In this document: piece by piece, positions 36,944 through 54,038 of the stretch | Layout: each line of letters starts with the position of its first letter | How positions within the stretch are numbered: the first letter of the stretch is position 1 | Assembly (NCBI RefSeq): GCF_000016425.1 | Contig: NC_009380.1 | Coordinates: forward strand, 1,802,144-1,866,143 | DNA from: Salinispora tropica CNB-440 | GTDB taxonomy: Bacteria > Actinomycetota > Actinomycetes > Mycobacteriales > Micromonosporaceae | Direction: 5' to 3' | DNA: 64,000 bases | The notes under the pieces: model-generated | The model's database searches: none | Told to the model about the DNA's origin: nothing | What the model saw: the letters and a program-made list of their open reading frames with translations, nothing else | Position numbers and translations under genes: made by a program

Positions 36944-37034
36944 CTGATCGGAGCTGCGGGCGTGTTCCGGTTGCGGCACTGGTGTCTCGTTTGGGTGTTT
37001 TGTTCGTATTCATGTCTTGATGGCGCTGGCGCCC

Positions 37035-37146
37035 GTTTGGCTCGGGGTGGTTGCTACCGCCGGCCGGGTAGCCGAGGGCCACCACTCGGGCCTGTCCCTG
37101 GGTGGCTGGCTCCTTGTCCACGACGGGAGAAAGACACCGGGACCAC
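37035..37146 (+). promoter_or_regulatory. Conserved leader, copy 1
   Basis: Starts GTTTGGCTCGGGG and carries GCTACC (37053-37058) pairing with GGTAGC (37067-37072), then CCGAGG. Upstream is the conserved TTCATGT block. The distal SD-region hairpin is the least conserved of the set (GACGGGAGAAAGACACCG). Confidence 0.7.
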
Positions 37147-38511
37147 ATGAAGCATCAGCACCACACACACAAGCCGAATCAGCCCAACGTGCGCCGGGTC
37201 AGATCCCGATGGTGGGTTGCTGGGCTGGCCGGGATGACTGGCCTGGCTCTGACCGCCGTCGGCGTCGCCGTCAGCCCAGCGGCTGACGCTGGCGCACGCA
37301 CCCTCACCACCACCACCGATGATGATCGTGGCAAGCGCGAGGACAAAGACAAGGAGCAGGGCGACAGCGGTAGGAGTGCGGATAGGGAGAAGAAGCGGAA
37401 GGGCACACCCGTTCCGTGTGGGGCGGACGCTCTGATTGCCGCGATCACCCTCGCCAACGCCCGCGGTGGAGCTGTGCTCGACCTCGCCGCACAGTGCACC
37501 TACACTCTCACCGCGGACCTTGACGGCGCCGGCCTGCCCGCCGTTACCGCCCCCGTCACCCTCAACGGCAACAAGAACACCACTATCACCCGCGCCGCCG
37601 CCGCCGACCAGTTCCGCATCCTCACCGTTGACACCGGTGGCGACCTCACCGTCAACCACCTGAAGGTCACCGGCGGCCACACCGCCGACGATGGTGGTGG
37701 GATCCTCGTCAACACCGGAGCAACGCTCACCATCAATCACAGCGCCATCACCCGCAACATCGCCAGCAACAGGGGTGGAGGCATCGCCAACAACGGCACC
37801 ACCCGGGTGCTGCACTCCACCGTCAGCCGCAACACTGCCAACTCGATCGGCGCAGGCATCACCAGTATCGGCGTACTCGAGGTCCGAAAGTCTCACGTTA
37901 ACGCGAATAGTGCCGCTGTGGGTGTGGCGGGAATCTTCAGCATCGGAACTGTTCGGATCGAGCACAGTACCATTGCCGCCAACCACGGTCAGATCGGGAA
38001 TATCGGCGGTCTTTTTGTTCGTGGAACCGGCACTGTCACGAATAGCCGCGTCGTGAACAACACCGCCGGGGAGGTTGGCGGCATACTAGCGGACTTCGAT
38101 TCTCAGCTCATACTCAGATCCGTCACTCTCACTGGAAACCGTGCCCGGACGGGGCGGGGTGGCGGGCTGGCGATGAACCCGAACGCCGCCGTTGTGGTCG
38201 AGAAGAGTGTCGTTACGAACAACACCGCTGCGGCGGAGGGGGGCGGTGTCTACAGTTTTGCCGAGCTGGTTACGCGACACACCAAGATCACCGGAAATCA
38301 GGCCAGTCGAGGTGGCGGCGTCTTCAATACCACCATCGGCACCGCCGACCTCTTCAGCACGAAGGTACGGCAGAATGTCGCCGTCACCGACGGTGGTGGC
38401 ATCCTCAACGCGGCGGGCGGCTCGGTGAATCTGAACACCGCCACCGGCACCTCTGTGGTGAGCAACCGGCCGGACAACTGCTCCGGCGACGTACCCGGCT
38501 GCGTCGGATAG
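37147..38511 (+). CDS. Secreted right-handed beta-helix protein, paralogue 1
   Basis: 454 aa from ATG 37147. His-rich N-terminus (MKHQHHTHKPNQP), basic RSRWW, then a signal helix (GLAGMTGLALTAVGVAVSPA). A charged linker is followed by PVPCGADALIAAITLANA and a QCTYTL strand, a conserved Cys pair. Residues about 90-435 are repeating rungs of the GGGI.N.G type (pectate-lyase-like / polymorphic-membrane-protein repeats). It ends NRPDNCSGDVPGCVG with a second Cys pair. No catalytic residues recognised; adhesin or surface polymer binding is a guess. Confidence 0.85.
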   Translation: MKHQHHTHKPNQPNVRRVRSRWWVAGLAGMTGLALTAVGVAVSPAADAGARTLTTTTDDDRGKREDKDKEQGDSGRSADREKKRKGTPVPCGADALIAAITLANARGGAVLDLAAQCTYTLTADLDGAGLPAVTAPVTLNGNKNTTITRAAAADQFRILTVDTGGDLTVNHLKVTGGHTADDGGGILVNTGATLTINHSAITRNIASNRGGGIANNGTTRVLHSTVSRNTANSIGAGITSIGVLEVRKSHVNANSAAVGVAGIFSIGTVRIEHSTIAANHGQIGNIGGLFVRGTGTVTNSRVVNNTAGEVGGILADFDSQLILRSVTLTGNRARTGRGGGLAMNPNAAVVVEKSVVTNNTAAAEGGGVYSFAELVTRHTKITGNQASRGGGVFNTTIGTADLFSTKVRQNVAVTDGGGILNAAGGSVNLNTATGTSVVSNRPDNCSGDVPGCVG

Positions 38512-38793
38512 CAGTCCGAGCACGCGGACTTCGAGGGGTCCCGTTCCGCCGCTTGCCGGTAGGGGTGGGGCCCCTTGGCTGCCAGGGGCATGGCGTTGGC
38601 GGGCAACTGCTGTCCCGGTGGTGATCAGGTCGTGTGAGTGGCAGTCGGCCTGGTGGGTGGTGCGGGGCCCGTCCTGCTCCGGTGGCGGGCTGACTCCACA
38701 ATCCGGACCGTGGAGGGCGGGCGCGCCGACGCCGAGACAAGAGCCTCATTCGCGTATTTCCTTCGTGTTCGCCACCCGGTGAGCCCGATGTCG
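38512..38793. other. Intergenic, short hairpin only
   Basis: 282 nt between paralogue 1 and leader copy 2. AGTCCG (38513-38518) pairs with CGGACT (38525-38530) just after the stop. No gene supported. Confidence 0.5.
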
Positions 38794-38907
38794 GTTTAGC
38801 TCGGGGATGGCCGCTACCGCCTGTCTGGTAGCTGAGGAACACGCCACCCCGTGTGCCTGGAGTGTGGTGGTTCCTCGCCGTTCACGGGGAAGGACACCGA
38901 GACCGCG
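38794..38907 (+). promoter_or_regulatory. Conserved leader, copy 2
   Basis: Begins GTTTAGCTCGGGGATGGC. GCTACC (38813-38818) pairs with GGTAGC (38827-38832), and GGGGATGGC can close around it with GCCACCCC at about 38843-38850. Then TTCCTCGCCG (38871 on) faces GGGGAAGGA, the only Shine-Dalgarno, 14 nt before the ATG. Confidence 0.75.
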
Positions 38908-40239
38908 ATGCCATCTCATCGACACGCCTATAGCTCCGCCCGCACCGATGGTCGGCCACCGCGGTGGTGGTGGTCCGTCGGGATGGCCGGCATGACCGGC
39001 CTGGCGTTCACCACTGCCGCTGTGGCCACTGCCGCTTATGCCCAACCGAACCAGCCCGCACCGAGCTTCACCACCGCGACCGACACGGACCTCCGCGACC
39101 GGGCAACCGAGAGCGGCCGGAACGGAGGCGGCACTCCCGTCGCGTGTGACGCGGATGCCCTGATTGCCGCGATCACGTCCGCCAACGCCACCGGCGGCGG
39201 TGTGTTCGACCTGGCCAAGGACTGCACCTACCTGCTTACTTTCGATATTGGTGGGGCCGGTCTGCCCGCGGTCACCGCCCCGATCACGCTTAATGGCGGT
39301 AAGAACACCACCATCGAACGCGCCGCCGCCGCAGACCAGTTCCGCATCCTCACCGTCGGCACCGGCGGCAACCTCACCCTCAACCATCTGAAGATCACCG
39401 GTGGCCAGACCACCGCGGCGGGTACCGACGGGGGCGGCATCCTCGTCAACACGGGCGGCGGGCTGGCGGTCAACCACAGCGCTGTCACGAGCAACATCGC
39501 CGGCGGCAATGGTGGCGGTATCGCCAACAACGGCGTCACCACCGTCAAGCGCTCCACCGTCAGCCGCAACACCGCCCGACTGGAAGGGGGCGGCATCTAC
39601 AGCACGGGCGCGCTGACCGTCGGCCGGTCTGAGGTGGAGGCGAACACCGGTACCGCCGGAGGAGGTGGCATCGCGAGCATGGGAGGAACGGTCGAGGTCG
39701 CCAAGAGTTCCCTCTCCGGCAACTGGTCCAATCAGGGGGCCGGTCTCTTCATCGTGGATAGCGGAATCGGCTCGGTTACCGACACCCATATCACGAAGAA
39801 TTCCGCTGCCGATGTTGGTGGGGGTGTCTTCATTCTGGGGCAGCTGACGATGCAGAAGGTTGTCCTTGCCGGCAACACCGCCGAAACCGGTGCCGGCCTC
39901 AGTGTCGTCAACGGCTCCACGGCCGACATCATGGACAGCGCCATCGTCGACAACACTGCCGGTGCACAGGGCGGCGGCATCTTTAACGCTGGTATGACCA
40001 CGCTGAACAACACCAAGCTCGACGGTAACCAGGCCGACATGGGCGGTGGTGTCCAGAACCTCGCAGCAGCGACGCTGACCTTCTTCGCCTCGACGGTCAC
40101 CGACAATCTCGCCGTGACCGACGGCGGGGGAATTTTCAACGAGGTAGGCGGGACCGTCACCCTGAATACGGCTACCGGCACCACCGTTATCGGTAACCGT
40201 CCGAACAACTGTGTGAATGTTCCCGGCTGCGCCGGGTAG
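38908..40239 (+). CDS. Secreted right-handed beta-helix protein, paralogue 2
   Basis: 443 aa from ATG 38908. Same plan as paralogue 1: basic N-terminus (MPSHRHAYSSARTDGR), RWWWSVG and signal helix, short linker, PVACDADALIAAITSANATG with KDCTYLL, about 13 beta-helix rungs, C-terminal NRPNNCVNVPGCAG. The linker is shorter than in paralogues 3 and 4. Stretches around LPAVTAPITLNGGKNTTIER are almost identical to paralogue 3 at DNA level, which points to duplication or gene conversion. Confidence 0.85.
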   Translation: MPSHRHAYSSARTDGRPPRWWWSVGMAGMTGLAFTTAAVATAAYAQPNQPAPSFTTATDTDLRDRATESGRNGGGTPVACDADALIAAITSANATGGGVFDLAKDCTYLLTFDIGGAGLPAVTAPITLNGGKNTTIERAAAADQFRILTVGTGGNLTLNHLKITGGQTTAAGTDGGGILVNTGGGLAVNHSAVTSNIAGGNGGGIANNGVTTVKRSTVSRNTARLEGGGIYSTGALTVGRSEVEANTGTAGGGGIASMGGTVEVAKSSLSGNWSNQGAGLFIVDSGIGSVTDTHITKNSAADVGGGVFILGQLTMQKVVLAGNTAETGAGLSVVNGSTADIMDSAIVDNTAGAQGGGIFNAGMTTLNNTKLDGNQADMGGGVQNLAAATLTFFASTVTDNLAVTDGGGIFNEVGGTVTLNTATGTTVIGNRPNNCVNVPGCAG

Positions 40240-40326
40240 CGACCCTGCGGGTCAGCTGGACCTGGGCCCCGCTCCTGCCGTATGAGGAAGGGGGCGGGGC
40301 TCTGCCGGTCCAGTAGATCACCAAAG

Positions 40327-40611
40327 CTACGGCGCGCCGCCCGAATCGCTGCTCACGCCGCTGTCGAGGGCCTGGCCCTCGCTGCCGCCGCCACCTTTCC
40401 CGCGGAGGCTGCCGGAACGCCGGCGGCGACTCTGGCGGGCGCTCTTCCGGATCGCCTTGCGGGCGTTCGCTATCGTCTCGTGTCTGCTGTCTGTCCGGGG
40501 ACCAGCTCTGCGTCGACGCCTCCGGGTCACGATGACGATCAGCAGGTGAACGACCAGCACAAGTGCGACCAGCAAGGGTAGAGCGAGCCACCCGAGGTGA
40601 ATCTTGGACAC
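40327..40611 (-). CDS. Small single-TM protein with basic tail
   Basis: 94 aa from GTG 40611. One N-terminal TM helix (LGWLALPLLVALVLVVHLLIV) followed by TRRRRRR and a Ser/Arg/Gly-rich cytosolic tail. AAGGAG is too close to the GTG for an ideal RBS, so the start is uncertain. Convergent with paralogue 2 and upstream-facing the PfaD-like gene's 3' end. Not recognised. Confidence 0.5.
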   Translation of the reverse strand: MSKIHLGWLALPLLVALVLVVHLLIVIVTRRRRRRAGPRTDSRHETIANARKAIRKSARQSRRRRSGSLRGKGGGGSEGQALDSGVSSDSGGAP

Positions 40612-40728
40612 TCCTTGAGGGTAACGACCCTAGTCGATGATCGGGAGTCGGACGTGCGGCGACCAGTCGAAGGGCGAGCCGGATCCTCGACGACGCGCCC
40701 GCGACCACTGCGAGTCGCGCCGGTCTGG

Positions 40729-42198
40729 TCAGCGTCCGGAACGGGCCGCCGTGAGCAGGTAGTGCAGCACGTCCGCGGCCGCGTAGTCGTCCCCGAAGCG
40801 TCGGTGTAGCTCGCTGAGGACATCGATGTCCTGGCCGATGGTGATGATCGGCGGCTCGGTGCCGTTGCCGCCCCGTCGCTGGCCCAGGCCGATCGTGCCC
40901 ATGAGCCCGTTGCACAGGCAGCGGCTACCCGTGGTGTCCTCCCCTGCGCCGCCCTTGCGGAGGTAGTCGTCTACCGGCTCAGCCGGGCACCGGAAACCGA
41001 TTTGGCCGGTCGGCCGTAGGTACGGGGTGCGCAGATATCCCAGATCGCACCGGCGGGCGCGGGCCTGGTAGACACTGTCCTCGGCGGCGGTGCCGTCCAG
41101 CTGGGCGATCTTGAAGGGGAAGCCGGTCGGGGAGGCGGCCGGATCGTTGTGGACCGCAAGCTGCCCGCTGGTGGCCCGCTGGAGCAACTGGTGTCGCAGC
41201 TGGGGGCTGATTCCGGATTCACGACACAGGGCGAATGCGGTGCCGACCTGGATTCCGGTGGCCCCGGCTGCCTGGACGGCGGCCAACTGCCGTGGGTCGG
41301 CCTGCCCGCCGGCTACCCAGAACGGCAGCCCGGACGCGGCCACCTTGGCCAGGTCGATCCGGTCCCGCTCGCCGTAGACGGGTTCGCCGTTGTCGTCCAG
41401 GACCATTTTGCCGCGGGGTCGAGCCGAGTGGCCGCCCGCGGTGGACCCTTCGAGGACGAAGCCGTCGGGGCAGGTGCGGGGGCTACGGGCAAGGTAACTC
41501 ACCAGGGACGCGGCGGAGACGATGGCCAGGAACCGCGGCCGCGGAAGGGGCGGTAGCTGGCCGATCAGATCAGGTGGGTTGAAGGCGACGGCGTGGGTTT
41601 CGCCCGCCGGGCTGCCCTCAACGGCGACGGGTAGCTTGACCGGCTGGTGGTGGGCCAGGGCGTCGATCAGAGAAGGGATCTCACTGGGCAGGCCGGCACC
41701 CATCAGGATGTAGTCGACCCCGGCCAGCATCGCTCCATACACCGCGGCGGGGGTAGCGAGCTGGATTTTTTCTAGGTAGTTGATGCCGACGACACCGCTG
41801 TGGCCTTGCTTGGCCAGGTGGACTTCGACGAAGTTGGCGACCACAGCCAGCTCGTTCGCGTGTCGTCGTGGTCGCATGCTCAGCAGGGGTGCCGGTCGGA
41901 ACGGTTTGTCCGCGGGGATTCCCCCCGCCACGTAGTAGCGGTCCAGCACTCGCTGGGCGATCTCCGGCGCAGGGAAGGCGCTCAGTGCCTGCCGCAGCGT
42001 GCCGTCCTCGTCGCCGAGCTGTAACCGGCGGGCCAGAGACGCGTCGAGTGCTACCCCGGACACCACTCCGAGCTGGCCTGCCGCGGATACGGCGGCGGCC
42101 AGCCGCCAGCTGGAGACACCGACGCCCATCCCACCCTGAATGACGATCGGAAATTCCACCTGAACCTGCCCTTCAGCCGGCACTGTCGGCACTGGCAA
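40729..42198 (-). CDS. PfaD-family nitronate monooxygenase-like flavoprotein
   Basis: 489 aa from the start at 42198. FMN-barrel features of 2-nitropropane dioxygenase/PfaD: PIVIQGGMGVGVSSWRLA, GVVGINYLEKIQL, GVDYILMGAGLPSEIP, VLEGSTAGGHSARPRG, WVAGGQADPRQL and GIQVGTAFALCRESG. PfaD proteins are trans-acting enoyl reductases in polyunsaturated fatty acid or trans-AT polyketide synthesis, yet no PKS or PUFA synthase is in the window. The C-terminal CRCLCNGL-type Cys region is typical of the longer PfaD group. Either an orphan or a stand-alone nitronate oxidase. Confidence 0.8.
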   Translation of the reverse strand: MPVPTVPAEGQVQVEFPIVIQGGMGVGVSSWRLAAAVSAAGQLGVVSGVALDASLARRLQLGDEDGTLRQALSAFPAPEIAQRVLDRYYVAGGIPADKPFRPAPLLSMRPRRHANELAVVANFVEVHLAKQGHSGVVGINYLEKIQLATPAAVYGAMLAGVDYILMGAGLPSEIPSLIDALAHHQPVKLPVAVEGSPAGETHAVAFNPPDLIGQLPPLPRPRFLAIVSAASLVSYLARSPRTCPDGFVLEGSTAGGHSARPRGKMVLDDNGEPVYGERDRIDLAKVAASGLPFWVAGGQADPRQLAAVQAAGATGIQVGTAFALCRESGISPQLRHQLLQRATSGQLAVHNDPAASPTGFPFKIAQLDGTAAEDSVYQARARRCDLGYLRTPYLRPTGQIGFRCPAEPVDDYLRKGGAGEDTTGSRCLCNGLMGTIGLGQRRGGNGTEPPIITIGQDIDVLSELHRRFGDDYAAADVLHYLLTAARSGR

Positions 42199-42377
42199 TC
42201 CTGTGGCCCGTGGATCAGGGGCGACAGGGCAATTGGTCCTGTGGTTGCGTGTGCCAGGTCACGTAGGGCGGGCTCCGACCGGAGGTCGGCGTGCCTGTGC
42301 GGGTCGCATCGGCACACCGGAACTTTGTCTAGTTTGGGGGTGTTTCTCGTGTTCATGTTCGGCTGGGGTTGGTGTCG

Positions 42378-42484
42378 GTTTAGCGTGCGGAGTGGCTGCT
42401 ACCGCCTGCCTGGTAGCCGAGGAAGCCGGCCTGGCCTGGGTTGGTCCTCCTCGCCGCTCACGGGGGAAGGACATCGACACCGCG
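42378..42484 (+). promoter_or_regulatory. Conserved leader, copy 3
   Basis: Begins GTTTAGCGTGCGG, preceded by GTTCATGTTCGG. GCTACC (42398-42403) pairs with GGTAGC (42412-42417). GTCCT (42444-42448) pairs with AGGAC (42468-42472), covering the SD GGGGGAAGG. The SD is 14 nt from the ATG, an unusually long spacing also seen in copies 2, 4 and 5. Confidence 0.78.
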
Positions 42485-43906
42485 ATGAATCACCAGCATC
42501 ACACCCACGAACCCGACCGGCCAGACGGACGTCGGCTGCGGTCCCGGTGGTGGGCTGTCGGCTTGGCGGGCGTAGCTGGGCTGGCTCTCACCGCCGTCGG
42601 CGTCGCAGCGGCTCCGGCCGCCGGCGCTGCGGGACGCGCCGCCACCAGCGCTGAGAACCAGCCCGGGGCCGGACACGACGCCAGCGACATGTCCAAGCAC
42701 GACGACAAGTCCAAGCACGACGGCAAGTCCAAGCACGACGGCAAAAGGGAAAAGGGCGGCAAGGAGAAGGGGAAGAAGGAGAAGCCGAAGGGCACGCCGG
42801 TCCCCTGCGACGCGGATGCGCTGATCGCCGCGATCACTCTCGCCAACGCCCGCGACGGCGCGGTGCTCGACCTCGCCAAGGACTGCACCTACCTGCTTAC
42901 GGTCGACATCGACGGTTCCGGTCTGCCCGCGATCACCGCCCCGATCACCCTCAACGGCGGTAAGAACACCACCATCGAACGCGCCGCCGCGGTCGACCCG
43001 TTTCGGATCTTCACCGTCGACGTCGGCGGCAACCTGACCCTCAACCATCTGAAGGTCACCGGCGGCCAGACCGATGGCAACGGTGGGGGAGTCCTCGTCA
43101 ATCCCGGTGGAGCGTTGACCACCAACCACAGCGCCATTACCCGAAACATCGCCGAGGGTGACGGTGACGGCGGTGGCATCGCCAACCTGGGCAGTACCCG
43201 GGTCAACTACTCCAAGGTCGACTGGAATACCGGCAACGAGCAGGGCGGCGGTATCTTCAGCACCGGACTATTGAAGATCGTCAAGTCGCACGTCGACAAC
43301 AACATCGCTAACACCGGCGGCGGCATCTACCAGGGCGGTAGCTCCATCACCGTCAAGGGCGGCAGCATCTCCGGCAACCAGGCAACCGCCGGTGGCGGGT
43401 TGTACCTGGCAGGCGGGATCGGCATGCTGACCGGCACCAAGGTCGCGAAGAACACCGTCAGTGGCAACGGTGGCGGTATCCGGGTTGGCGAAGGCGGGCA
43501 GTTGACGCTGCGGAAGGTCAGCCTCGCCGACAACGCCGCGGCATCGGGTGTCGCCGGTGGCTTGTACATCGAGGGAGCGGAGGTGCTGGATACCATCGCC
43601 GTCGTCGAGGACAGCGTCATCAAGAACAACATCGCCGGCATCAGCGGTGGAGGTATCCAGAGCACAGCGGTAGGAGTGTTGCGACGCACCAAGGTCATCG
43701 GCAACCAGGCCGATGAGGGCGGCGGCATCTTCAACACCGGCACGATGAACCTCTTCACCACAAAGGTCGTCGAGAACATCGCGATCACCGACGGCGGGGG
43801 CATCGTCAACTCCGGTGGCACGGTGAACCTGAACACCGCCACCGGCACCGTGGTCATCAAGAACCGGCCCAACAACTGCGTCGACGTTCCCGGCTGCGCG
43901 GGCTGA
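42485..43906 (+). CDS. Secreted right-handed beta-helix protein, paralogue 3
   Basis: 473 aa from ATG 42485. N-terminus MNHQHHTHEPDRPDGR, RSRWW, signal helix, then a Lys-rich linker with an 18-nt tandem repeat (SKHDGK units, about 42692-42745) ending KEKPKG. Then PVPCDADALIAAITLANARD, KDCTYLL, beta-helix rungs with GGGI motifs (about 125-455), and C-terminal NRPNNCVDVPGCAG. The basic linker could bind anionic wall polymers. Its stop is followed by a strong terminator. Confidence 0.85.
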   Translation: MNHQHHTHEPDRPDGRRLRSRWWAVGLAGVAGLALTAVGVAAAPAAGAAGRAATSAENQPGAGHDASDMSKHDDKSKHDGKSKHDGKREKGGKEKGKKEKPKGTPVPCDADALIAAITLANARDGAVLDLAKDCTYLLTVDIDGSGLPAITAPITLNGGKNTTIERAAAVDPFRIFTVDVGGNLTLNHLKVTGGQTDGNGGGVLVNPGGALTTNHSAITRNIAEGDGDGGGIANLGSTRVNYSKVDWNTGNEQGGGIFSTGLLKIVKSHVDNNIANTGGGIYQGGSSITVKGGSISGNQATAGGGLYLAGGIGMLTGTKVAKNTVSGNGGGIRVGEGGQLTLRKVSLADNAAASGVAGGLYIEGAEVLDTIAVVEDSVIKNNIAGISGGGIQSTAVGVLRRTKVIGNQADEGGGIFNTGTMNLFTTKVVENIAITDGGGIVNSGGTVNLNTATGTVVIKNRPNNCVDVPGCAG

Positions 43907-43927
43907 CGCTTCGAGGAAGTACCAAGA

Positions 43928-43968
43928 GGGTTCCGTCCCGCCGCGCGAAGTGCGGCGGGACGGAACCC
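43928..43968. terminator. Strong bidirectional terminator
   Basis: Perfect 17-bp stem: GGGTTCCGTCCCGCCGC at 43928-43944 and 43952-43968, loop GCGAAGT, between paralogue 3 and the convergent lysin-like gene. Confidence 0.88.
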
Positions 43969-44024
43969 TTGGTCAGTCGCCGCGGGCTTCCGGCGTCCGT
44001 GTCGCGTCGTGGACGGCCGGATGG

Positions 44025-44837
44025 TCAACGAATTGGGTTGCGGTAGGCGGCGTCCCATGTGTTACGGCCGAGTAGCCCGTCTCTGCTCAGGCCCTGATCT
44101 GCTTGGAATGCTGTGATCAACTCTCGGTGCTCTGGGCCGTACAGGCCGTCATGGCCGTTTTTGCGAAGGTACCTCTTTCCCTTGCCGGCGGGCCAGCCCC
44201 GGCGGGTGAGCTGCTTGGTCCACATGGCGAGCCACTGTCGGTCCAGTTTGCCGTTGAATCTCCGGCGGTAGTAGCCCGACACCGATCGATCTCCGCCGCT
44301 ACGTGGACCAAAGTAGTAGCCGCTCGGCAGAGGGAATGACACTGCTGGCCCCGGTGCCGGTTCGACCGGCCCCGGATCGCCGAGTTGGTCGAGTCGCCAG
44401 TTCGTACCCCGCACCGTGTCGGCAGCTTGGGTGAAGTCAGAATTCACGTGGCAGTGACTCGTGTGCTGGTTCGAGCCGGTGTAGGTATGCGTGGCAAAGC
44501 CGTGGCGGCGGTGCCAGATCCGGCCGTTGTAGATGATGTACCGCACCCACCACAGATCGTTGGAGCGGGCAAGCTTCACCCACAGCTGCACGACGTGTTC
44601 CATCGTGACCCCGCCCGGGTCGCGCAGGTCGGCGTCGAAGTCTCGGGCGCGTACCTCGTCGAGGTCGTCGCCGTCGCGGTATTCCGGCCGGCCGGTTCGG
44701 TCCGGGTTGTGACTCGACGGGGAGTCCTGGTGGGAGGTGTCTCCGATCGAGCCGTCCGATCTCTTGTCCCGCTTGGGGAACCGCTTGTTGAGCTGATCGC
44801 GAGCTTCATCCAGGTTCGGAACCACCATCCATGCCAT
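44025..44837 (-). CDS. Lysin-like protein with C-terminal peptidoglycan-binding domain
   Basis: 270 aa. The N-terminal two thirds (LDEARDQLNKRFPKRDKRSD, SSHNPDRTGRPEYRDGDDLD, FATHTYTGSNQHTSHCHVNS) follow the pattern of phage and actinomycete endolysin-like hydrolases with His/Asp residues fit for metal binding. Residues about 190-265 are a PG_binding_1 domain (DGLYGPEHRELITAFQADQG, GLLGRNTWDAAY). No signal peptide is seen, as in phage lysins. The start overlaps the small upstream ORF by 32 nt. Confidence 0.72.
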   Translation of the reverse strand: MAWMVVPNLDEARDQLNKRFPKRDKRSDGSIGDTSHQDSPSSHNPDRTGRPEYRDGDDLDEVRARDFDADLRDPGGVTMEHVVQLWVKLARSNDLWWVRYIIYNGRIWHRRHGFATHTYTGSNQHTSHCHVNSDFTQAADTVRGTNWRLDQLGDPGPVEPAPGPAVSFPLPSGYYFGPRSGGDRSVSGYYRRRFNGKLDRQWLAMWTKQLTRRGWPAGKGKRYLRKNGHDGLYGPEHRELITAFQADQGLSRDGLLGRNTWDAAYRNPIR

Positions 44838-44961
44838 CGATGTTCACCTCCACAACTGGCCAGTCGGTCTGCTCAGGGTCGAGCCATGGATCCGGGGTCT
44901 GCATCCCGATGTGCTGCTCCGGGTCCTCGTTCGGGTCCGGGTGTGGGTTGGTGACGGACAT
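44806..44961 (-). CDS. Small acidic protein upstream of the lysin-like gene
   Basis: 51 aa from ATG 44961 with GGGAGGGAC immediately upstream, one of the best RBSs of the region. Pro/Asp-rich (TNPHPDPNEDPEQHIG; TDWPVVEVNIDGMDGG). It overlaps the lysin-like start by 32 nt, suggesting coupled translation. Not recognised; phage-like small proteins look similar. Confidence 0.6.
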   Translation of the reverse strand: MSVTNPHPDPNEDPEQHIGMQTPDPWLDPEQTDWPVVEVNIDGMDGGSEPG

Positions 44962-45269
44962 GTCCCTCCCTTGAGGTGAGATGTGATTTGATCGGGCATG
45001 CGTGCCCCGGCGAATTGCGGCACGATTAGCGTGATAGCGTTTCGCTGCGAATTGCGCTGTCGGCAATTCATGTTTTGTTGGTGATTCATCGATCCTAGCG
45101 CCCATGTGGCTCATGGGCATGATCAAATCCTTGTCGCAGATTGCCCTCTGTGGGGGCGTGGCGGACATTGACGACTGAAATGTGTATTCACATTCTCGGC
45201 AACGGGGTGTCGCACCCAGGTCGGTAGCGATCATGGTCTGCCGCAGTCTTGGCGTCTGTTCCCCTATCG

Positions 45270-45402
45270 ATGTTCATCGGCCTTCAGCGCGGTTGTCCTG
45301 CGGGCTGGCGGCCCGCTGGCGGCCGATGGTCGGGGCGGACCACCCGTGCCGCTCCTGGGTGGCCGCTCCTCGTCTGTGCTGGGGAAGGCGGCCGATGCGG
45401 CG
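45270..45402 (+). promoter_or_regulatory. Diverged leader, possible copy 6
   Basis: TCGGCCTTCAGCGCGG resembles TCGGTTTAGCGTGCGG of copy 3. It is followed by a GCGGGC/GCCCGC hairpin in the place of GCTACC/GGTAGC, an outer CATCGGCC/GGCCGATG stem, and GGGGAAGG 14 nt before ATGAACCCC (45403), like the start of the beta-helix genes. The ATG at 45403 opens a short sequence in frame with the MFS gene. The rest of 44962-45543 has no other gene. Confidence 0.4.
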
Positions 45403-45543
45403 ATGAACCCCGGCACCCACTCGTGGTCCCGCCGTTGGGTGGAAGTCGGCGGAGGCGGAGTTGGTGTCTTCCTCCGTCAGGTCCTGATTCTGCCGAGCGC
45501 ATATTTTCTTGCATATTTTTTGGGGGCGGATGATGCTTCCGGG

Positions 45544-46848: not shown

Positions 46849-46913
46849 GGCTGTTCATTTTGATCTGGTTTGGTGGATTTAGCCGTATTTAGGGTTTCGC
46901 GGCGCTTCCCATT

Positions 46914-47025
46914 GTTTAGCGTGCGGTGGCTGGTACCACCCTGCGGGTAGCTGGGGAGTGACCTCGACTGGCGCCCAGGCCGAGTGGTTCCTTGCCGTGC
47001 ACGGGGGAAGGACATCGAGATCGCG
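46914..47025 (+). promoter_or_regulatory. Conserved leader, copy 4
   Basis: Begins GTTTAGCGTGCGGTGGCTGG. The first hairpin is partly altered (GGTACC and GGGTAGC). TCCTT (about 46989) pairs with AAGGA in the SD GGGGGAAGGA, 14 nt before the ATG. The 3' half is almost identical to copy 3. Confidence 0.72.
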
Positions 47026-48453
47026 ATGAACCATCAACGCCACACCCAGGTAGACAAGCCCGATCGTCCGGGCGAGAGGCCGGTGAGGCCATGGTGGCGG
47101 TGGTGGGCTGTGGGGTTGTCCACGGTGACGGGTCTGGCCCTTACCGCCGTCGGTGTTGCTGCGACCCCGGTCGGTGACACGATCGGACGCGCCCTGCCGG
47201 CCGTCGATGCGCCCGAAGCCCCTACTGGCGAGCTTCCCGCCAACAGCCGTCGGGACGAAAGCGGAGCCGAGGAGGGCAAGGACGACGGGGTCAGGGGCGA
47301 GACGGGCAAGGGCGACGCGGACCATGGGGAGCGGCGGGAAGGTAGGCCGGTCCCGTGCGACCCGGATCGACTGATCGCCGAGATCGTCCGGGCCAACGCC
47401 GGCGGTGGCGCCGTGCTCGACCTCGCCGAGGGCTGCACCTATCTGCTCACCGCCGACCTCGGTGGTGCCGGTCTGCCCGCTGTCACCGCCCCGATCACCC
47501 TTACCGGCGGTAGGAACACCGCCATCGAGCGGGCCGCCGCCGTTGACCAGTTCCGGATCCTTGCCGTGAACGCCGGTGGCGATCTCACCCTGAACCAGTT
47601 GACGATCACCGGCGGCCACGCCGCCGATGGTGGCGGGGGGATCCTCGTCAACACCGGTGGAGCGTTGACCCTCAACCACAGCACCATCAATCGCAACATC
47701 GCCGATGTCCTGGGCGGCGGTATCGCCAACAACGGCACCACCCGGGTCAGACACTCCAGCGTCGAACGGAACATTGGGAACCAGCGCGGCGGTGGGATCT
47801 TCAGTGCCGGCCCGCTGGAGATCGTGCAGTCTCACATCGACAGAAACACCGCCGACCTCGGCGGCGGCATCTTCGAATCCGACAGCAGCGTGACCGTCAA
47901 GGGGGGCAGCATCGCCGACAACCGGGCGCAAGCTGTCGGCGGGCTGTTCGTCTCCGGTGGCATCGGCACGGTTACCGGCACTCGAATCACCGGGAACTCG
48001 GCCCACTCAGACGGCGGTGGTGTCCGGGTTGGTCTCGGCGGGCAGCTGGCGTTGCGGTGGGTGCGCCTGACTGACAACACCGCCCTGTCGGGGCTGGCCG
48101 GTGGCCTCTTCATCGAGGGGGACATCGGAGGAGGGAGCTACGTCGTCGTCGAGGACAGTGTCATCAGGAACAACACCGCGATGGCTGCCGTCGGTGGTGG
48201 AATCCTCAACGCGGGGCAGGCGGTGTTGCGACGTACCCGGATCCTCGGTAACCGGGCCGCGCAGGGCGGCGGCATCTACAACTCCGGTACGGTCAGCCTC
48301 GCCGCAACGAAGGTGGTCGACAATGTCGCGGTCACCGATGGTGGAGGAGTCGTCAACGACGGCGGCACGGTGGACCTGAACATCGCCACCGGCACCGTCG
48401 TGATCAAGAATCGGCCGAACAACTGCCTCAACGTTGCGGGCTGCGTTGGATAG
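47026..48453 (+). CDS. Secreted right-handed beta-helix protein, paralogue 4
   Basis: 475 aa from ATG 47026. N-terminus MNHQRHTQVDKPDRPGE, then WWRWW and the signal helix LSTVTGLALTAVGVAA. The linker is acidic and Gly-rich rather than Lys-rich. PVPCDPDRLIAEIVRANAGG with GCTYLL carries the Cys pair, beta-helix rungs span about 130-455, and the C-terminus is NRPNNCLNVAGCVG. It is the most diverged copy at the N-terminus. Tail-to-tail with the esterase gene: its stop overlaps that gene's 3' end by about 26 nt. Confidence 0.85.
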   Translation: MNHQRHTQVDKPDRPGERPVRPWWRWWAVGLSTVTGLALTAVGVAATPVGDTIGRALPAVDAPEAPTGELPANSRRDESGAEEGKDDGVRGETGKGDADHGERREGRPVPCDPDRLIAEIVRANAGGGAVLDLAEGCTYLLTADLGGAGLPAVTAPITLTGGRNTAIERAAAVDQFRILAVNAGGDLTLNQLTITGGHAADGGGGILVNTGGALTLNHSTINRNIADVLGGGIANNGTTRVRHSSVERNIGNQRGGGIFSAGPLEIVQSHIDRNTADLGGGIFESDSSVTVKGGSIADNRAQAVGGLFVSGGIGTVTGTRITGNSAHSDGGGVRVGLGGQLALRWVRLTDNTALSGLAGGLFIEGDIGGGSYVVVEDSVIRNNTAMAAVGGGILNAGQAVLRRTRILGNRAAQGGGIYNSGTVSLAATKVVDNVAVTDGGGVVNDGGTVDLNIATGTVVIKNRPNNCLNVAGCVG

Positions 48454-49654
48454 CAGCCGAGGGCCGGCCTCCACCGAGCAGGTCCGTGATTCCGTCCTCC
48501 CACAGCCCGCGCCACCAGGCCATGTCGTGCCCACCCTGGAACTCTCGGTAGGCCATTGTGGGCGGGCGCTCCGCAAGCGCCTCCCGCAGCCGTCGGTGCG
48601 GCTCCAGCAGTGTCGGTTCGAACACACCCACGGTGAGGAAGAGGCGCACCGGCCCGGCCGTCGCGGCGCGGTCAAGCAGGTCGGCCTGCCACAGTGACGC
48701 CGACTGGCTGAGCGCCGCACCCACCGACTCCGGGTGGTCGAAGGCGGTCTTCAGTGCGGTCAGCCCGCCCAGGCTCTCTCCGGTCAGCACGACATCCCGG
48801 GGGTCGGCGCTTACCGGCACCCGATCGCGTAGCCACGGCAGCAGGGTCGTGACCACCTCCTCGCTCATCGCGCCGTCAATGCTCAGGTCGGCCATTCGCC
48901 GCGGCGAGGTGCCCCCGGTCTCGACCAGTGCCAGATAGGGCGCACGGATCGTTCCCGACTCTGCGAGCCGGTCCGCGCTGGCGGCGGCGTAGCCGGAGGC
49001 GTGCCACACCTCCCCGTCCAACACCACGACCAGCGGCCGGGGCGTGCCGTCAGCATCGGGCGGCGGGGACAGCCACACCGGGCGCCCGGTGGGTGTGACC
49101 AGACGCTGAGCGCGGGGAGACGGTCCGTGCGCCGGCGCTGCCCGCGGCGACGCGGTGTCCAGTTCCGCCACCGAGGCGAGTCGGCCACTGTGGGTACGGA
49201 TGCGCCTCGGGTTGCGGGGGTCGGTGCTGCCCTCCTCGCGGATCGTGCGCATCGCCCACCGCGACTCGGTGCCGGACAGCGGGCTGCTTCCCGCCGCGTC
49301 GGTTTCGAGCACCGTGTACGACCCACGCCAGTCGGCGGGTAGGCGGAACGCGGCGTACCACACGTCGGTACCGGGCACCCGTTCCATCCGGCTGTCGTCG
49401 AGGTCATAGGTCACCCGGTTGACGGTCACGTGGACCGCGGTGGCAGCGATGGAGCGCCACAGGAACGTCACCCGGCGCTCGCCGTCGCCGGCCTCCTCGA
49501 CCAGGGGCGTACGGCGGGCAACCGTCTCCCAGAACTCCGTCGCCGAGCAGTCGGCTGCGAGCCGGGCGATGCGCGGGCTCGGGGTGCGGCGCGACGGCGG
49601 TTTCGGCGGTGCGGGCGGCAGCGTGATCCGGCTGGGGCCACTAGTGAGGTTCAC
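48428..49654 (-). CDS. Enterochelin-esterase-like ferri-siderophore hydrolase
   Basis: 408 aa from GTG 49654 with AAGGAGCAGAC upstream. N-terminal Fes domain (VTFLWRS, VYAAFRLP-like), then an alpha/beta-hydrolase: LVVVLDGEVWHASGYAAAS, nucleophile Ser in LTGESLGGLTALKTAF, catalytic His in FQGGHDMAWWRGLW near the C-terminus. Fes enzymes cut ferric catecholate siderophores in the cytoplasm to free iron. Last gene of the iron operon, 35 nt after the ATPase gene. Its 3' end overlaps beta-helix paralogue 4. Confidence 0.88.
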   Translation of the reverse strand: MNLTSGPSRITLPPAPPKPPSRRTPSPRIARLAADCSATEFWETVARRTPLVEEAGDGERRVTFLWRSIAATAVHVTVNRVTYDLDDSRMERVPGTDVWYAAFRLPADWRGSYTVLETDAAGSSPLSGTESRWAMRTIREEGSTDPRNPRRIRTHSGRLASVAELDTASPRAAPAHGPSPRAQRLVTPTGRPVWLSPPPDADGTPRPLVVVLDGEVWHASGYAAASADRLAESGTIRAPYLALVETGGTSPRRMADLSIDGAMSEEVVTTLLPWLRDRVPVSADPRDVVLTGESLGGLTALKTAFDHPESVGAALSQSASLWQADLLDRAATAGPVRLFLTVGVFEPTLLEPHRRLREALAERPPTMAYREFQGGHDMAWWRGLWEDGITDLLGGGRPSAAIQRSPQR

Positions 49655-49689
49655 GTCTGCTCCTTCTGTTCTGCGTCCCAGCGATGACG

Positions 49690-50496
49690 TCACGCGGCGG
49701 CGGTGTTCCGAGCGGCGATCGGGATGACCAGCGGTGTGCCGAACACCGGGTCGGTGACGACGCGGGCCTTCAGCCGGAAGACGTCGTGCAGCAACTGCTC
49801 GGTGAGCACCGTGTGCGGGGCGCCGGTGGCCGCCACCGCGCCGTCGTGCAGCACCACGAGATGGTCGGCGTAGCGTGCTGCCTGATTGAGGTCGTGCAGC
49901 ACCAGGACCACGGTGCGCCCCTGGTCGCGGTTGAGCCGTCGGCACAGTTCGAGCACCTCGAGCTGGTGTGAGATATCGAGGTAGGTGGTGGGTTCGTCCA
50001 GGAGTAGCACCGGCGTCTCCTGGGCGAGGATCAGTGCGATCCACACCCGCTGTCGTTGGCCGCCGGACAACTCCTCGACGGTCCGGTCCGCCAGCTCCGC
50101 CACCCCGGTCGCCGCGAGCGCCCGGGCCACCGCCGCTTCGTCCTCGTGGCTCCACTGCTGCAACATTCGTTGGTGCGGGAAGCGGCCACGGCCGACGAGG
50201 TCGGCGACGGTGATGCCGGCCGGCGCCACGGAGGACTGCGGTAGCAGCCCGAGTCGGCGGGCCAGTTCCTTCGGGGCCAGCCGCTGTACGTCCTGGCCGT
50301 GGAGCAGTACCTGGCCGGTCCTGGGGCGGAGCAGTCGCGCGAGCGCCCGTAGCAGCGTCGACTTGCCGCACGCGTTCGGGCCGAGGATCACGGTTACCGC
50401 GCCGTCCGGGATGGAGACGTCAAGATCGTGAGCGACCTGACGTGACTCGTACGCGAGCGTCAGGCGGGCTGCCTCGAGAGCGGGTGGGGAGGTCAT
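49690..50496 (-). CDS. Iron-siderophore ABC transporter ATPase (FepC-like)
   Basis: 268 aa from ATG 50496. Walker A LGPNACGKSTLLRAL, Q-loop RRLGLLPQSS, signature VEELSGGQRQRVWIAL, Walker B PVLLLDEPTTYLDISHQ, and a switch His in VLHDLNQAARYAD. This is the FecE/FepC family that energises FecCD permeases. It lies 14 nt after the permease gene in a five-gene minus-strand operon. Confidence 0.94.
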   Translation of the reverse strand: MTSPPALEAARLTLAYESRQVAHDLDVSIPDGAVTVILGPNACGKSTLLRALARLLRPRTGQVLLHGQDVQRLAPKELARRLGLLPQSSVAPAGITVADLVGRGRFPHQRMLQQWSHEDEAAVARALAATGVAELADRTVEELSGGQRQRVWIALILAQETPVLLLDEPTTYLDISHQLEVLELCRRLNRDQGRTVVLVLHDLNQAARYADHLVVLHDGAVAATGAPHTVLTEQLLHDVFRLKARVVTDPVFGTPLVIPIAARNTAAA

Positions 50497-50510
50497 GGGG
50501 TCCTTCCGGC

Positions 50511-51563
50511 TCAGACCTGCTTGGTGCGGGTCAGCATCCAGATGAGGTACAGGCCACCGACGATGCCGGTGGTCCGGCCGATCGGGACGGCGGCGGTGAT
50601 CGGCAGCAGCCGGGTGACCGTGTCGGCGAGTATCAGCAGGCACCCGCCCATCGCAGCGGCGCTGATCACCGGCATGCGACGCCAGCCGGTGAGTCGGACC
50701 ACGAGTTGCGGTGCGGCCAGGGCGATGAACGCGATTGGTCCGGCGGCTCCGGTGGCCAGCCCGGCGAGGGCTACCGCGGCGAGCATGAGCAACACCCGGG
50801 TGCGTTCCACCCGGACCCCGAGCTGCTGGGCGATGTCGTCGCCCATCTCGATGAGCGACGCCCGGCGGGCGAGGGGGAGAACGAGCGGTACGAGAACGAG
50901 CACACCGACCGTGACCGGCAGGGCGTGCGTCCAGGTACGGGCGTCGAGTGACCCCGACAGCCACAGGCTGGCGGTGAAGACCTGGTTCAGATCTCCGGTC
51001 ACGAGCAGCAGGCCGTTCACCGCGCCGAGCACGGCGCTCACCCCGATCCCGATCAGGATCAGCCGGTAGCCGCCGGTCACGCCGCCCCGGCGGGAGAGTA
51101 CATAGACGGCTACCGCGGTGAGGAGCCCTCCGGCCACCGCACCCAGTGACACCTGTAGGGCTTCGGCCTGGAAGACGATGATCTGCACGATCGCCCCGGT
51201 CGCCGCTCCGGTGGTGAAGCCGATCACGTCGGGTGAGCCGAGCGCGTTGCGGGACACCGACTGGAAGATGGCTCCGGAGATACCCAGCGCGGCCCCGGCG
51301 AAGATCGCGGTGATCACGCGGGGTAGCCGCAGACCCCGTACGACGCGGTCGTGCTGGATGTTTCCGGAGGTGTCCAGGACCGCCGCGACCACCTCGGCGA
51401 ACGAGAGTCGCAGCGTGCCGATCGTCATCGCCGCGACGCCCAGGGCCACGCCGACGACCAACAGGACGCCCGTGATCGTCACCAGCCGCGGCGAGATCAC
51501 CAGGGAGGTTCCGCCCACCCGCCACACCCGTCGCCCCTCGGGGAGCAGCCGGGCCGGGGTCAC
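50511..51563 (-). CDS. FecCD-family siderophore permease (FepG-like)
   Basis: 350 aa from GTG 51563; the GTG overlaps the previous stop (GTGA). About ten TM helices, with the family motifs RVVRGLRLPRVITAIFAGAALGISGAIFQ, GSPDVIGFTTGAATGA-like, and the GLATGAAGPIAFIALAAPQL segment that contacts the ATPase. Forms a heterodimer with the upstream permease. Confidence 0.93.
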   Translation of the reverse strand: MTPARLLPEGRRVWRVGGTSLVISPRLVTITGVLLVVGVALGVAAMTIGTLRLSFAEVVAAVLDTSGNIQHDRVVRGLRLPRVITAIFAGAALGISGAIFQSVSRNALGSPDVIGFTTGAATGAIVQIIVFQAEALQVSLGAVAGGLLTAVAVYVLSRRGGVTGGYRLILIGIGVSAVLGAVNGLLLVTGDLNQVFTASLWLSGSLDARTWTHALPVTVGVLVLVPLVLPLARRASLIEMGDDIAQQLGVRVERTRVLLMLAAVALAGLATGAAGPIAFIALAAPQLVVRLTGWRRMPVISAAAMGGCLLILADTVTRLLPITAAVPIGRTTGIVGGLYLIWMLTRTKQV

Positions 51564-52651
51564 AGCCGCACCATCCGGCGACGTCGCACCAGCAGGACGA
51601 AGAACGGCCCGCCCAGAATCGAGACCATGATGCCGACGCTCACCTCACCGCTGGCCGGGAGGGCCCGGCCGAGCGTGTCGGCGACGACGATGAGTGCAGC
51701 GGCCAGCGCGCCCGAGTACGGCAGAACCCAGCGGTGGTCCACACCGGCCAGGAGTCGGGCGAGGTGCGGCGCGGCCAGCCCGAGAAAGGCGATCGGCCCG
51801 GCCGCGGCCGTGGCGGCGCCGGCGAGCACGATAACGGCGAGGCCCGCGGTCGCCCAGACCTGGGTGGGGCGGCCCCCCAGTGACCGGCTGAGCTCTTCGC
51901 CGAGCATCGCCGCGTCGAGCGGACGCGCGAGGGCGTGGGCGAGCAGGAGCCCGGCGGTGGTGAGGAGGCCGGCGGCGATCAGTACGTCGGTGCCGCGGCC
52001 GGCGAGCGAGCCGACCATCCAGTGCCAGTAGCGGTCGTAGATCTGCTCGGTGCTGTTGACGAGAATGAGGTGGGTCAGGGCCATGAGGACGACGGTGAGG
52101 GCGGCGCCGGCAAGCACGAGCCGTACCGGGTTGGTGCCGGTGCGCAGGCCGCCGAGCAGGTAGACGATGGCTCCGGCGATTCCCGCGCCGAGGACGCCGA
52201 GCCACATGTAGGCGGACGGCTCGGTCACGCCGAAGAACGTGATGCCGGCGGCGATGGCGGTCGCCGCCCCGGCGTTGACGCCGAGCAGTCCCGGGTCGGC
52301 CAGCGGGTTGCGGGTGAGCGCCTGCATGACCGCGCCGGCGACGCCCAGGCTGACGCCGACCACGACGCCGAGTAGCGCACGGGGAATGCGTTGATGGACG
52401 ACGAGCAGGTGTGCCGAGTTGGTCGGATCGAACGCGGTCACCGCGTCCCAGGTGGTGGCGAGGGGGATGGCCCGGGTACCGACGGTGGCGCTGGCGAAGG
52501 TGCCGATCACCAGTACGGCCGAGAGCAGGAGCAGCCCGGTGCCGCGGTGCCGCGGGCGTGGGCTGGTGGTTGTGGTCCGGACCGGGTGGGGGCGAGGCCG
52601 CCTCCACCCGGTCGTCGGGTTACTTGGCAAAGCGCGCGACGACGCTGTCAA
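51560..52651 (-). CDS. FecCD-family siderophore permease (FepD-like)
   Basis: 363 aa if started at TTG 52651, which overlaps the binding-protein gene by 32 nt; no ATG or GTG precedes the first TM, so the start is approximate. About ten TM helices, motifs RIPRALLGVVVGVSLGVAGA, NPLADPGLLGVNAGAATAIA and AAAGPIAFLGLAAPHLARLL. N-terminal 35 residues are Pro/Arg-rich and cytosolic. Partner of the FepG-like permease. Confidence 0.9.
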   Translation of the reverse strand: MTASSRALPSNPTTGWRRPRPHPVRTTTTSPRPRHRGTGLLLLSAVLVIGTFASATVGTRAIPLATTWDAVTAFDPTNSAHLLVVHQRIPRALLGVVVGVSLGVAGAVMQALTRNPLADPGLLGVNAGAATAIAAGITFFGVTEPSAYMWLGVLGAGIAGAIVYLLGGLRTGTNPVRLVLAGAALTVVLMALTHLILVNSTEQIYDRYWHWMVGSLAGRGTDVLIAAGLLTTAGLLLAHALARPLDAAMLGEELSRSLGGRPTQVWATAGLAVIVLAGAATAAAGPIAFLGLAAPHLARLLAGVDHRWVLPYSGALAAALIVVADTLGRALPASGEVSVGIMVSILGGPFFVLLVRRRRMVRL

Positions 52652-53612
52652 CGATCTCGGTGGCGCTGTACTGGTCCACCCGGAACGAGTTCAGCCCGAG
52701 CCCGTACACCTGGCCCTGCTTGACCGAGGGCACGTTCGCGAGCACCGGATCATCGGCGAAGGCCTGCGCGCCCACGTCGTCCTTGCTGAGGATGAAGGTG
52801 GTCTCCGCCGTCAGGGTGGTCAGGTTCTCGTACGCGGTCCAGATGAAGTCCTCACGAAGTTGGCTTCGGGTGTTCCACTCTGGGTTCGGGTCCTCGATGG
52901 TGAAGCCGAGGTCACTGAGGAGACGTGCCTGGGCGGAATCCTGGCGCGCGATCGGGTTGCTCTCCCCGGCGCCGTTGAACGAGATGACGTTCGCGCCGCC
53001 GTCGGGCACCTGGATCTTCGACGCCGCCTCCTGGACATAGTCGTCGAACGCGGTGACGGTCTGCTCGGCCTCGGCCTCCAAACCGGTTGCCTGCCCGAGC
53101 GTTGCGGCGAGCTCCTGCCAGGTCTGCCCGCCGTAGTCGACGACGATCGTCGGGGCGATCGCGCGCAGTTCGCCGATCTGTTCCACCAACGAGTCGGCGC
53201 CGGTGGCGGAGACGACGACGAGGTCGGGCGTGTGGGCGTACACCGCCTCCAGGTCGACCTTCCCGGCGGGCCAGAGGTTGGCGACGTCGCGTTCGTCGGC
53301 CACATCGGCCCACTGGGCGAAGAACTCACCGGAACTTCCGGCGCCCGAAGCGACCACCGGGGCGTCGAAGGCGAGCAGGGTGCCGGTCACCGAGACGGAG
53401 GTGGAGACGATCGCTTCGGGCTTCTTCGTGATCTTGGTGGTGGTGCCGTCGGCGTTGGTGAAGGTGCGGGGCCACCCCTCGGTCTGGGAGGTGGCCGATT
53501 CGGAGGTGTCGGTGTCGGAGGTGCTGGAGCAGCCGACCGTGGCCAGGGCGGCGATGGCGACGACGGTGACGCCCGCGAGAGCCCGGGCGGGTGAGGGGAA
53601 GTTGTGCACCAT
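52620..53612 (-). CDS. Siderophore-binding lipoprotein (FepB-like)
   Basis: 330 aa from ATG 53612; an upstream in-frame ATG at 53654 lies within the iron box region and is unlikely. Signal peptide with lipobox ALATVGCSS, then a Ser/Thr linker and the helical-backbone binding fold: WPRTFTNADGTTTKITKKPE, VVSATGADSLVEQIGELRAI, APTIVVDYGG and VPSVKQGQVYGL. First gene of the operon, directly behind an IdeR-type iron box. Confidence 0.92.
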   Translation of the reverse strand: MVHNFPSPARALAGVTVVAIAALATVGCSSTSDTDTSESATSQTEGWPRTFTNADGTTTKITKKPEAIVSTSVSVTGTLLAFDAPVVASGAGSSGEFFAQWADVADERDVANLWPAGKVDLEAVYAHTPDLVVVSATGADSLVEQIGELRAIAPTIVVDYGGQTWQELAATLGQATGLEAEAEQTVTAFDDYVQEAASKIQVPDGGANVISFNGAGESNPIARQDSAQARLLSDLGFTIEDPNPEWNTRSQLREDFIWTAYENLTTLTAETTFILSKDDVGAQAFADDPVLANVPSVKQGQVYGLGLNSFRVDQYSATEIVDSVVARFAK

Positions 53613-53656
53613 AACGATCCTTGTTCGGGGCTGGAGCGCGACACGCTCCTGCAAAG

Positions 53657-53675
53657 TTAGCTTAGGCTAACCTAT
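53657..53675 (-). promoter_or_regulatory. IdeR/DmdR iron box
   Basis: TTAGCTTAGGCTAACCTAT on the plus strand; its complement matches the IdeR/DmdR consensus TTAGGTTAGSCTAACCTAA at about 17 of 19 positions. It is 45 nt upstream of the fepB-like start, so the operon is probably repressed by iron-loaded regulator. Confidence 0.85.
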
Positions 53676-53756
53676 CGAGATCGATCGTGGCTGGGTGGTA
53701 GGTGGACCCACTCGAGGACTAATTTTCGGGTTCATGTTCGTATGGGGTTATTGTCG

Positions 53757-53870
53757 GTTTAGCGTTTGGGCGGCGGCTACCGCCGGTTCGGTAGCCGAGG
53801 GGACACCACGCCGGGCTGGTCCCGGTTTGGCGGCGTTCCTCGCCGTTCAGGGGAAGGCACCGACACCGCG
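53757..53870 (+). promoter_or_regulatory. Conserved leader, copy 5 (upstream of the asparagine synthetase fusion)
   Basis: Begins GTTTAGCGTTTGGG, preceded by GGTTCATGTTCG as in copy 3. GCTACC (53776-53781) pairs with GGTAGC (53790-53795). GTTCCTCGCCG faces GGGGAAGG, about 14 nt before ATGAGGCAT. Despite this conservation, the coding region behind it is only a 55-codon beta-helix N-terminus. Confidence 0.75.
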
Positions 53871-54038
53871 ATGAGGCATCACGACCACAAAGGTGAACCG
53901 GAGTGTCCTGGTCGGGACCGCACCCGCGCCCGGAGCCGGCGGTGGTGCGCGACCCGGATATCCGGGGCGACCGGCCTCGCTCTCGTCCCGGTGGTGATTT
54001 CCCACCACACAATGCGCGAATCGTCAACCCAGAGGTGA
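53871..54038 (+). CDS. Truncated secreted-protein N-terminus acting as an upstream ORF
   Basis: 55 codons from ATG 53871. MRHHDHKGEPECPGRDRTRA, then RSRRWC and a degraded hydrophobic stretch (ISGATGLALVPVVI) match the His-rich start and signal helix of the beta-helix paralogues, then the frame stops at TGA 54036-54038. The stop lies within the GAGGTGA Shine-Dalgarno of the next gene, 7 nt before its ATG, so ribosomes leaving this ORF could re-initiate there. Either a gene fossil or a working leader peptide. Confidence 0.6.
   Translation: MRHHDHKGEPECPGRDRTRARSRRWCATRISGATGLALVPVVISHHTMRESSTQR

Follow-up and report, generated by a model that had tools for sequence, protein, structure and literature searches.

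The stretch of DNA analysed here (the window, 64,000 nucleotides (nt) of contig NC_009380.1 from Salinispora tropica CNB-440) carries five similar non-coding leaders, at positions 37035, 38794, 42378, 46914 and 53757 (Table 1). An initial annotation had located these five leaders correctly and had described the genes behind them as different genes. We found instead that four of the leaders each precede a paralogue of a single family (443-475 amino acid (aa) residues; the other three are 56-60% identical to the first one aligned) and that a 55-aa remnant of such a gene lies behind the fifth. With moderate confidence, we regard the repeat as the promoter and structured 5' leader of the Pmp (polymorphic membrane protein)-type beta-helix surface-protein genes of Micromonospora (including Salinispora), which would control their mRNAs in common.

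None of the four window paralogues gave a Pfam match at E 0.001. Their copy number, host and character agree with those of the Salinispora Pmp family [PMC3314556], and we infer on these grounds, locus tags not having been matched, that they belong to it. In that paper, two Salinispora genomes are described as having at least 28 Pmp copies (30 and 28 pass a phylogenetic test) and Micromonospora as having two. What our leaders would have in common with the described family is the downstream genes; the passages that give these counts mention neither a shared leader nor an RNA structure.

Most window copies share the motifs GTTTAGC and GCTACC, as annotated initially, but the copy at 37035 has GTTTGGC and that at 46914 has GGTACC. 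The combination GTTTAGC-N5-20-GCTACC occurs exactly three times in the window, against none expected from 100 shuffles. A purine run lies 13-14 nt ahead of the ATG in all five leaders, in accordance with the Shine-Dalgarno (SD) sequence previously placed 14 nt from the start codon; in the copy at 37035, it consists only of GGAGAAAG. The block TTCATGTTCG, which had been noted upstream of several copies, is exact in two of them and differs at one position in a third; with up to one mismatch it has six matches in the window, where 1.67 were expected and 2 of 100 shuffles reached six. A sequence-only model built from 25 leader copies (the window five, which it matches, and 20 others) also detected a sixth, decayed copy at 45273-45409 (E 3.4e-8, model positions 28-166). 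A second weak match to this model was seen in S. pacifica (L044:4141-4286, E 2e-6).

Model searches of Micromonosporaceae genomes, which the initial annotation had suggested, revealed both this Salinispora form of the leader and a genus-wide sister form. Among 160 genomes of the genus, 18 had a match to the Salinispora-form model. Eight Salinispora-type genomes contained at least 17 leader copies each, and three matches were found in another genome (G013); weak matches in nine other genomes (E 7e-4 to 7e-3) were taken as chance, three alignments having been inspected. In 100 fetched loci, the sequence-only model gave 154 matches; the best 150 were aligned, and 146 of these were 135 nt or longer. 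Removal of near-duplicates at 95% left 137. One further match in G013 (705919-706029, model positions 8-123, E 1e-9) was not used in the leader sets, as the 3' half of the match could not be aligned. No Pmp-like open reading frame (ORF) lies behind it in the stretch examined, and a loose hairpin pattern detected no leaders at the other G013 Pmp genes in the fetched stretches.

Other Micromonospora Pmp homologues have the same upstream layout with a different hairpin, GCTACAACCGATTTGTAGC, which pairs GCTACAA with TTGTAGC. This sister pattern occurs in 97 of 300 sampled genomes of the family. A covariance model made from 31 sister leaders matched 168 of 354 Micromonosporaceae genomes, namely 159 of the 160 in the genus and nine in three other genera; in the order, 33 of 249 genomes matched, all within the genus. 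The genome to which the window belongs has two sister leaders as well, at 3506057 and 3507974.

The hairpin, designated P2 in both forms, permits a direct comparison. GCTACCG-CCGTT-TGGTAGC of Salinispora aligns base for base with GCTACAA-CCGAT-TTGTAGC of the sister form: pair 6 is altered on both sides, pair 7 changes from A-U to G-U, and the CC at the start of the loop is kept. Five-nt loops are present in 24 of the 137 Salinispora copies. Outside locus L292, the sister model gave seven matches with E <1; six of these coincide with P2 of true leaders and are correctly oriented, four of the six being in one locus. Because of the hairpin alignment, together with the same genes, order and spacing, we consider the two forms homologous with good, though not complete, confidence. 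As the sister form is found genus-wide, comparison supports a leader that predates its expansion to many copies in Salinispora.

Comparison also supports a tie of the leader to one gene family. When 148 Salinispora-form copies with an ATG were examined, the next ORF matched a window Pmp at least by BLASTP in 144 cases and was a full Pmp-like ORF in 122, many of the others being shortened or cut by the fetched stretch. The 81 sister leaders whose loci had been fetched through the leader itself (by pattern, model or place) all precede an ORF that matches the window Pmp profile. Divergent leaders ahead of Pmp-profile ORFs were seen at loci L367 and L369, and the P2 place of L369 seems to carry another hairpin sequence (CGACC/GGUCG).

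Behind the leader at 53757 (copy E), the remnant ends with a stop codon 7 nt ahead of an asparagine-synthase-like ORF at 54046. In S. fenicalii and S. mooreana, the leader is followed by a 433-aa Pmp and then by the synthase gene, with about 1350 nt from the leader to the start of that gene; in genome G063, an asparagine synthase gene starts 1836 nt after a leader. S. vitiensis has a 53-aa Pmp remnant, as in the window. The loci compared for this arrangement were L102, L093, L095 and L142. As read from these loci, S. vitiensis and the window genome no longer have the Pmp body, which leaves leader and mini-ORF immediately ahead of the synthase. Leaders ahead of 41-aa frames at L363 (G013) and L368 (G085) have a broken or imperfect P2; as P2 is intact ahead of other Pmp remnants such as that of copy E, loss of P2 before remnants is no rule.

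Sequence conservation among the 137 Salinispora-form copies begins about 20 nt ahead of a TTTTTCG box, whose TTCGnnTT core is kept over the set, and the box stands 32-33 nt from GTTTAGC in 127 of them. In the sister form, the box is 34 nt ahead of TACNGTG in 56 of 63 cases among the measurements listed, and TACNGTG is 16-17 nt ahead of P2 in 91 of 95 leaders. In a search that allowed gaps of 20-30 nt, the gap between TTCGGATA and CATACGGTG was 24 nt in all six matches, which came from five of 31 genomes. Because of these spacings between box, TAnnnT-like element and P2, GTTTAGC is most likely the -10 region of a promoter, and the RNA probably starts a few nt ahead of P2; the 5' boundary of the leader, which had been set at GTTTAGC, is accordingly doubtful. 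At its fixed distance from CATACGGTG (sister promoters, e.g., L241-L311), the TTCGGATA box is not a usual -35. This upstream box may be the signature of a sigma factor or activator specific to the family.

That the leader is conserved and structured, as annotated initially, is borne out by consensus folds that exceed column-shuffled alignments on the sense strand only. For 42 divergent Salinispora-form leaders, the consensus fold scored -8.35 against -0.77 (standard deviation 1.07) for the shuffles, none of 200 reaching it, and the antisense fold scored 0.0 (z 0.19); the fold is essentially P2 with two further pairs. In the sister subfamily A7 (16 of the 31 leaders), P2, a second hairpin (P3) and a helix around the SD together scored -18.15 against -3.29 (standard deviation 1.77; 0/200), and the antisense gave z -1.46 (17/200).

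P2 has the consensus GCURC followed by two variable pairs, with a loop mostly starting CC. All seven pairs are formed in 113 of the 137 Salinispora-form copies (best of four registers) and in 25 of 25 sister leaders from loci fetched by protein, which were not chosen for P2; in a shuffled-segment control with the same search on all 99 leaders, seven pairs arose in 1.3%. Transitions within P2 kept the pairing via G-U in 17 of 26 cases, against 36% expected (p 0.0024), and ten further changes were transversions. Among 111 genes whose Pmps are 45-65% identical as proteins, identity is 82-87% in the P2 columns, 53-58% at four-fold sites and 52-54% in the variable part of P3. The arms of P3 nevertheless prefer each other: in an arm-swap test with 16 sister groups, own partners gave -14.88 kcal/mol against -12.11 kcal/mol for swapped ones, a value reached in 0 of 10000 swaps (controls, p 0.16-0.55), and 42 Salinispora groups gave p 0.0016 with a small mean effect (controls, p 0.18-0.99). 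Both-sided changes in P3 were seen in 3 of 18 pairs. The comparison thus supports pairing of P2 and P3 as RNA and their maintenance by selection.

Several results weigh against this account. Single window leaders showed no clear excess of folding over shuffles (z -1.83, -1.20, -0.60, 0.18 and -0.70), and the mean z of single leaders in the Salinispora-form set was -0.73; single folds being unremarkable, the structure is visible only in comparison. RNAalifold on all 31 sister leaders returned P2 alone, since P3 cannot be aligned in a single register. With only three coarse sister groups, the P3 arm-swap gave p 0.51; by sister subfamily, it gave 0/10000 in one and p 0.055 in another. A column-pair covariation test with a phylogenetic null, a check of the kind envisaged in the initial annotation, gave no pair of significance for the Salinispora set; the arm-swap and G-U tests were positive, with the exceptions given here. 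Position-by-position tests of P3 in Salinispora gave none below 0.05. A three-way junction with an outer stem P1, as seen in several single folds, was rejected (arm-swap p 0.12-0.17). The TAnnnT element was counted only 67 times at 15-17 nt ahead of P2 in the 137 Salinispora-form copies, and the sister-model scores of Salinispora-form leaders were below threshold (E 0.13-0.56).

In the arrangement that we propose, the TTTTTCG box would be followed 34-35 nt downstream by a TAnnnT-like -10 (TACGGTG in the sister form; within GTTTAGCGT in Salinispora), and P2 would come about 17 nt past the -10, with the mRNA starting a few nt before it. After P2 would come P3, paired but variable in sequence, then the SD and the ATG. 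The leader would act in cis, at the post-transcriptional level, on all Pmp mRNAs in common. A putative trans-acting factor (an RNA-binding protein, a ribonuclease or a small RNA) would recognise the 5'-terminal P2, and this recognition would set mRNA stability or access to the SD. P2 is kept in both sequence and pairing at the predicted 5' end and P3 in pairing only, which fits a recognition hairpin followed by a structural hairpin; it is this fit that led us to propose a factor binding to P2. Tentatively, the leader may be the target of a dedicated RNA-binding factor or small RNA that reads the GCURC hairpin and sets the dosage of the surface-protein family. Should such a factor exist, an RNA-level regulon would have been copied along with its genes during their expansion in marine Salinispora.

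The main rival is control at the DNA level, in which P2 is a palindromic operator just past the -10 of a promoter specific to the family, the remaining leader sequence having been duplicated along with it. The sister P2 is a 7-base-pair inverted repeat (spacer, 5 nt) positioned where repressor sites are commonly found, the promoter elements are kept at near-fixed spacing, and the sequence of P2 is conserved beyond the needs of pairing. An operator does not, however, predict a preference for sense-strand G-U pairs among the changes in P2 or the loss of the consensus fold in antisense, and P3 retains its pairing while its sequence turns over. We therefore consider an operator rather unlikely. 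Still less can be said for leaders that are alike merely from recent gene duplication, with no regulation at all. Nearly all copies do lie in one gene family, but P2 and the SD region hold 78-87% identity, whereas four-fold sites and other leader parts have about 50-58%, and conservation of the sister form extends over the genus, where most non-Salinispora genomes have one to three matches each; we give this explanation very little credence.

A further alternative derives from the initial annotation, in which the SD was thought to be sequestered by the distal TTCC/GTCCT segment. As a switch, TCCT would pair either with the SD (OFF) or with GAGGA of P3 (ON), in response to a ligand, temperature or a factor. 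TCCTC is complementary to part of the SD as well as to GAGGA, and the arm-swap test for SD pairing gave p 0.005 in Salinispora, but the same test gave p 0.98 in the sister leaders. Moreover, in ensembles predicted for 69 of the 137 Salinispora-form leaders, the segment paired with the 5' arm of P3, just past P2, at a mean probability of 0.41 and with the SD at 0.14; pairing with P3 was above that with the SD in 70% of the 69 leaders, and the SD was unpaired at 0.49, against 0.37 for the whole leader. Sequestration is thus not the main predicted state, and we judge the switch to be improbable.

When the whole window was searched against Rfam 15 at the gathering score, only a tRNA was found, which agrees with the initial failure to assign the leader to a riboswitch class. 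A relaxed Rfam search with one window leader gave a microRNA model as the best match (E 3.9), and a relaxed search of three sister loci gave nothing on the leaders. No published description of the leader was found among the listings of the literature searches. Because of the lack of both an Rfam match and a description, this real, conserved and structured leader of one gene family is apparently undescribed.

Some stem-loops at the 5' terminus protect mRNAs, as in the ompA leader. The Pmp leader resembles the ompA leader in having a hairpin at or near its predicted 5' end, followed by more structure and the SD, and differs from it in that P2 is strongly conserved in sequence and bound to one gene family. 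Like the leaders of ribosomal-protein and other autogenously controlled mRNAs, it is a structured 5' untranslated region of one family that could bind a factor; unlike them, it precedes genes for proteins with signal sequences and is not known to have a candidate binding protein. With riboswitches and the cis-regulatory families of Rfam it shares a structured leader ahead of the SD, but it has no Rfam match and serves a single gene family. If the proposed common control is correct, the leader represents an RNA family that is apparently undescribed and is conserved throughout a genus of interest for its natural products, and it offers a handle on the control of many similar surface proteins, which have been proposed as marine adaptations. 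Its copies form a natural series of variants, including losses such as the leader that now stands ahead of the asparagine synthase gene without the Pmp body.

Table 1. Leader copies and associated genes in the window (P2, P3 and promoter assignments are predictions)
Feature	Position	Strand	Remark
Copy A, promoter region	37003..37041	+	box TTCGTATT 37003-37010; -10-like GTTTGGC 37035-37041
Copy A, hairpin P2	37053..37072	+	GCTACC...GGTAGC
Copy A, hairpin P3	37074..37116	+	arms GAGGGC / TCCTTG; single-sequence fold gives these arms other partners
Copy A, SD-like	37126..37133	+	GGAGAAAG
Pmp paralogue 1	37147..38511	+	454 aa
Copy B, promoter region	38762..38800	+	box TTCGTGTT; GTTTAGC
Copy B, hairpin P2	38813..38832	+	
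Copy B, hairpin P3	38834..38877	+	GAGGAA / TCCTCG
Copy B, SD-like	38886..38893	+	GGGGAAGG
Pmp paralogue 2	38908..40239	+	443 aa
Copy C, promoter region	42346..42384	+	box CTCGTGTT; GTTTAGC
Copy C, hairpin P2	42398..42417	+	
Copy C, hairpin P3	42419..42453	+	GAGGAA / TCCTCG
Copy C, SD-like	42462..42470	+	GGGGGAAGG
Pmp paralogue 3	42485..43906	+	473 aa
Sixth, decayed copy	45273..45409	+	adjoins MFS transporter gene; without GCTACC/GGTAGC hairpin
Copy D, promoter region	46883..46920	+	box CCGTATT; GTTTAGC
Copy D, P2 place	46932..46951	+	variant GGTACC...GGTAGC, one G-G mismatch; single-sequence fold pairs differently
Copy D, P3 place	46953..46994	+	GGGGAG / TCCTTG; by alignment
Copy D, SD-like	47003..47011	+	GGGGGAAGG
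Pmp paralogue 4	47026..48453	+	475 aa
Copy E, promoter region	53725..53763	+	box TTCGGGTT; GTTTAGC
Copy E, hairpin P2	53776..53795	+	
Copy E, hairpin P3	53797..53842	+	
Copy E, SD-like	53850..53857	+	GGGGAAGG
Pmp N-terminal remnant behind copy E	53871..54038	+	55 aa; 42% over 38 aa to a Pmp, E 1e-6

Adjoining copy E, the minus strand of the window at 49690-53654 carries an apparent iron-siderophore uptake gene set, as read from its sequence only.

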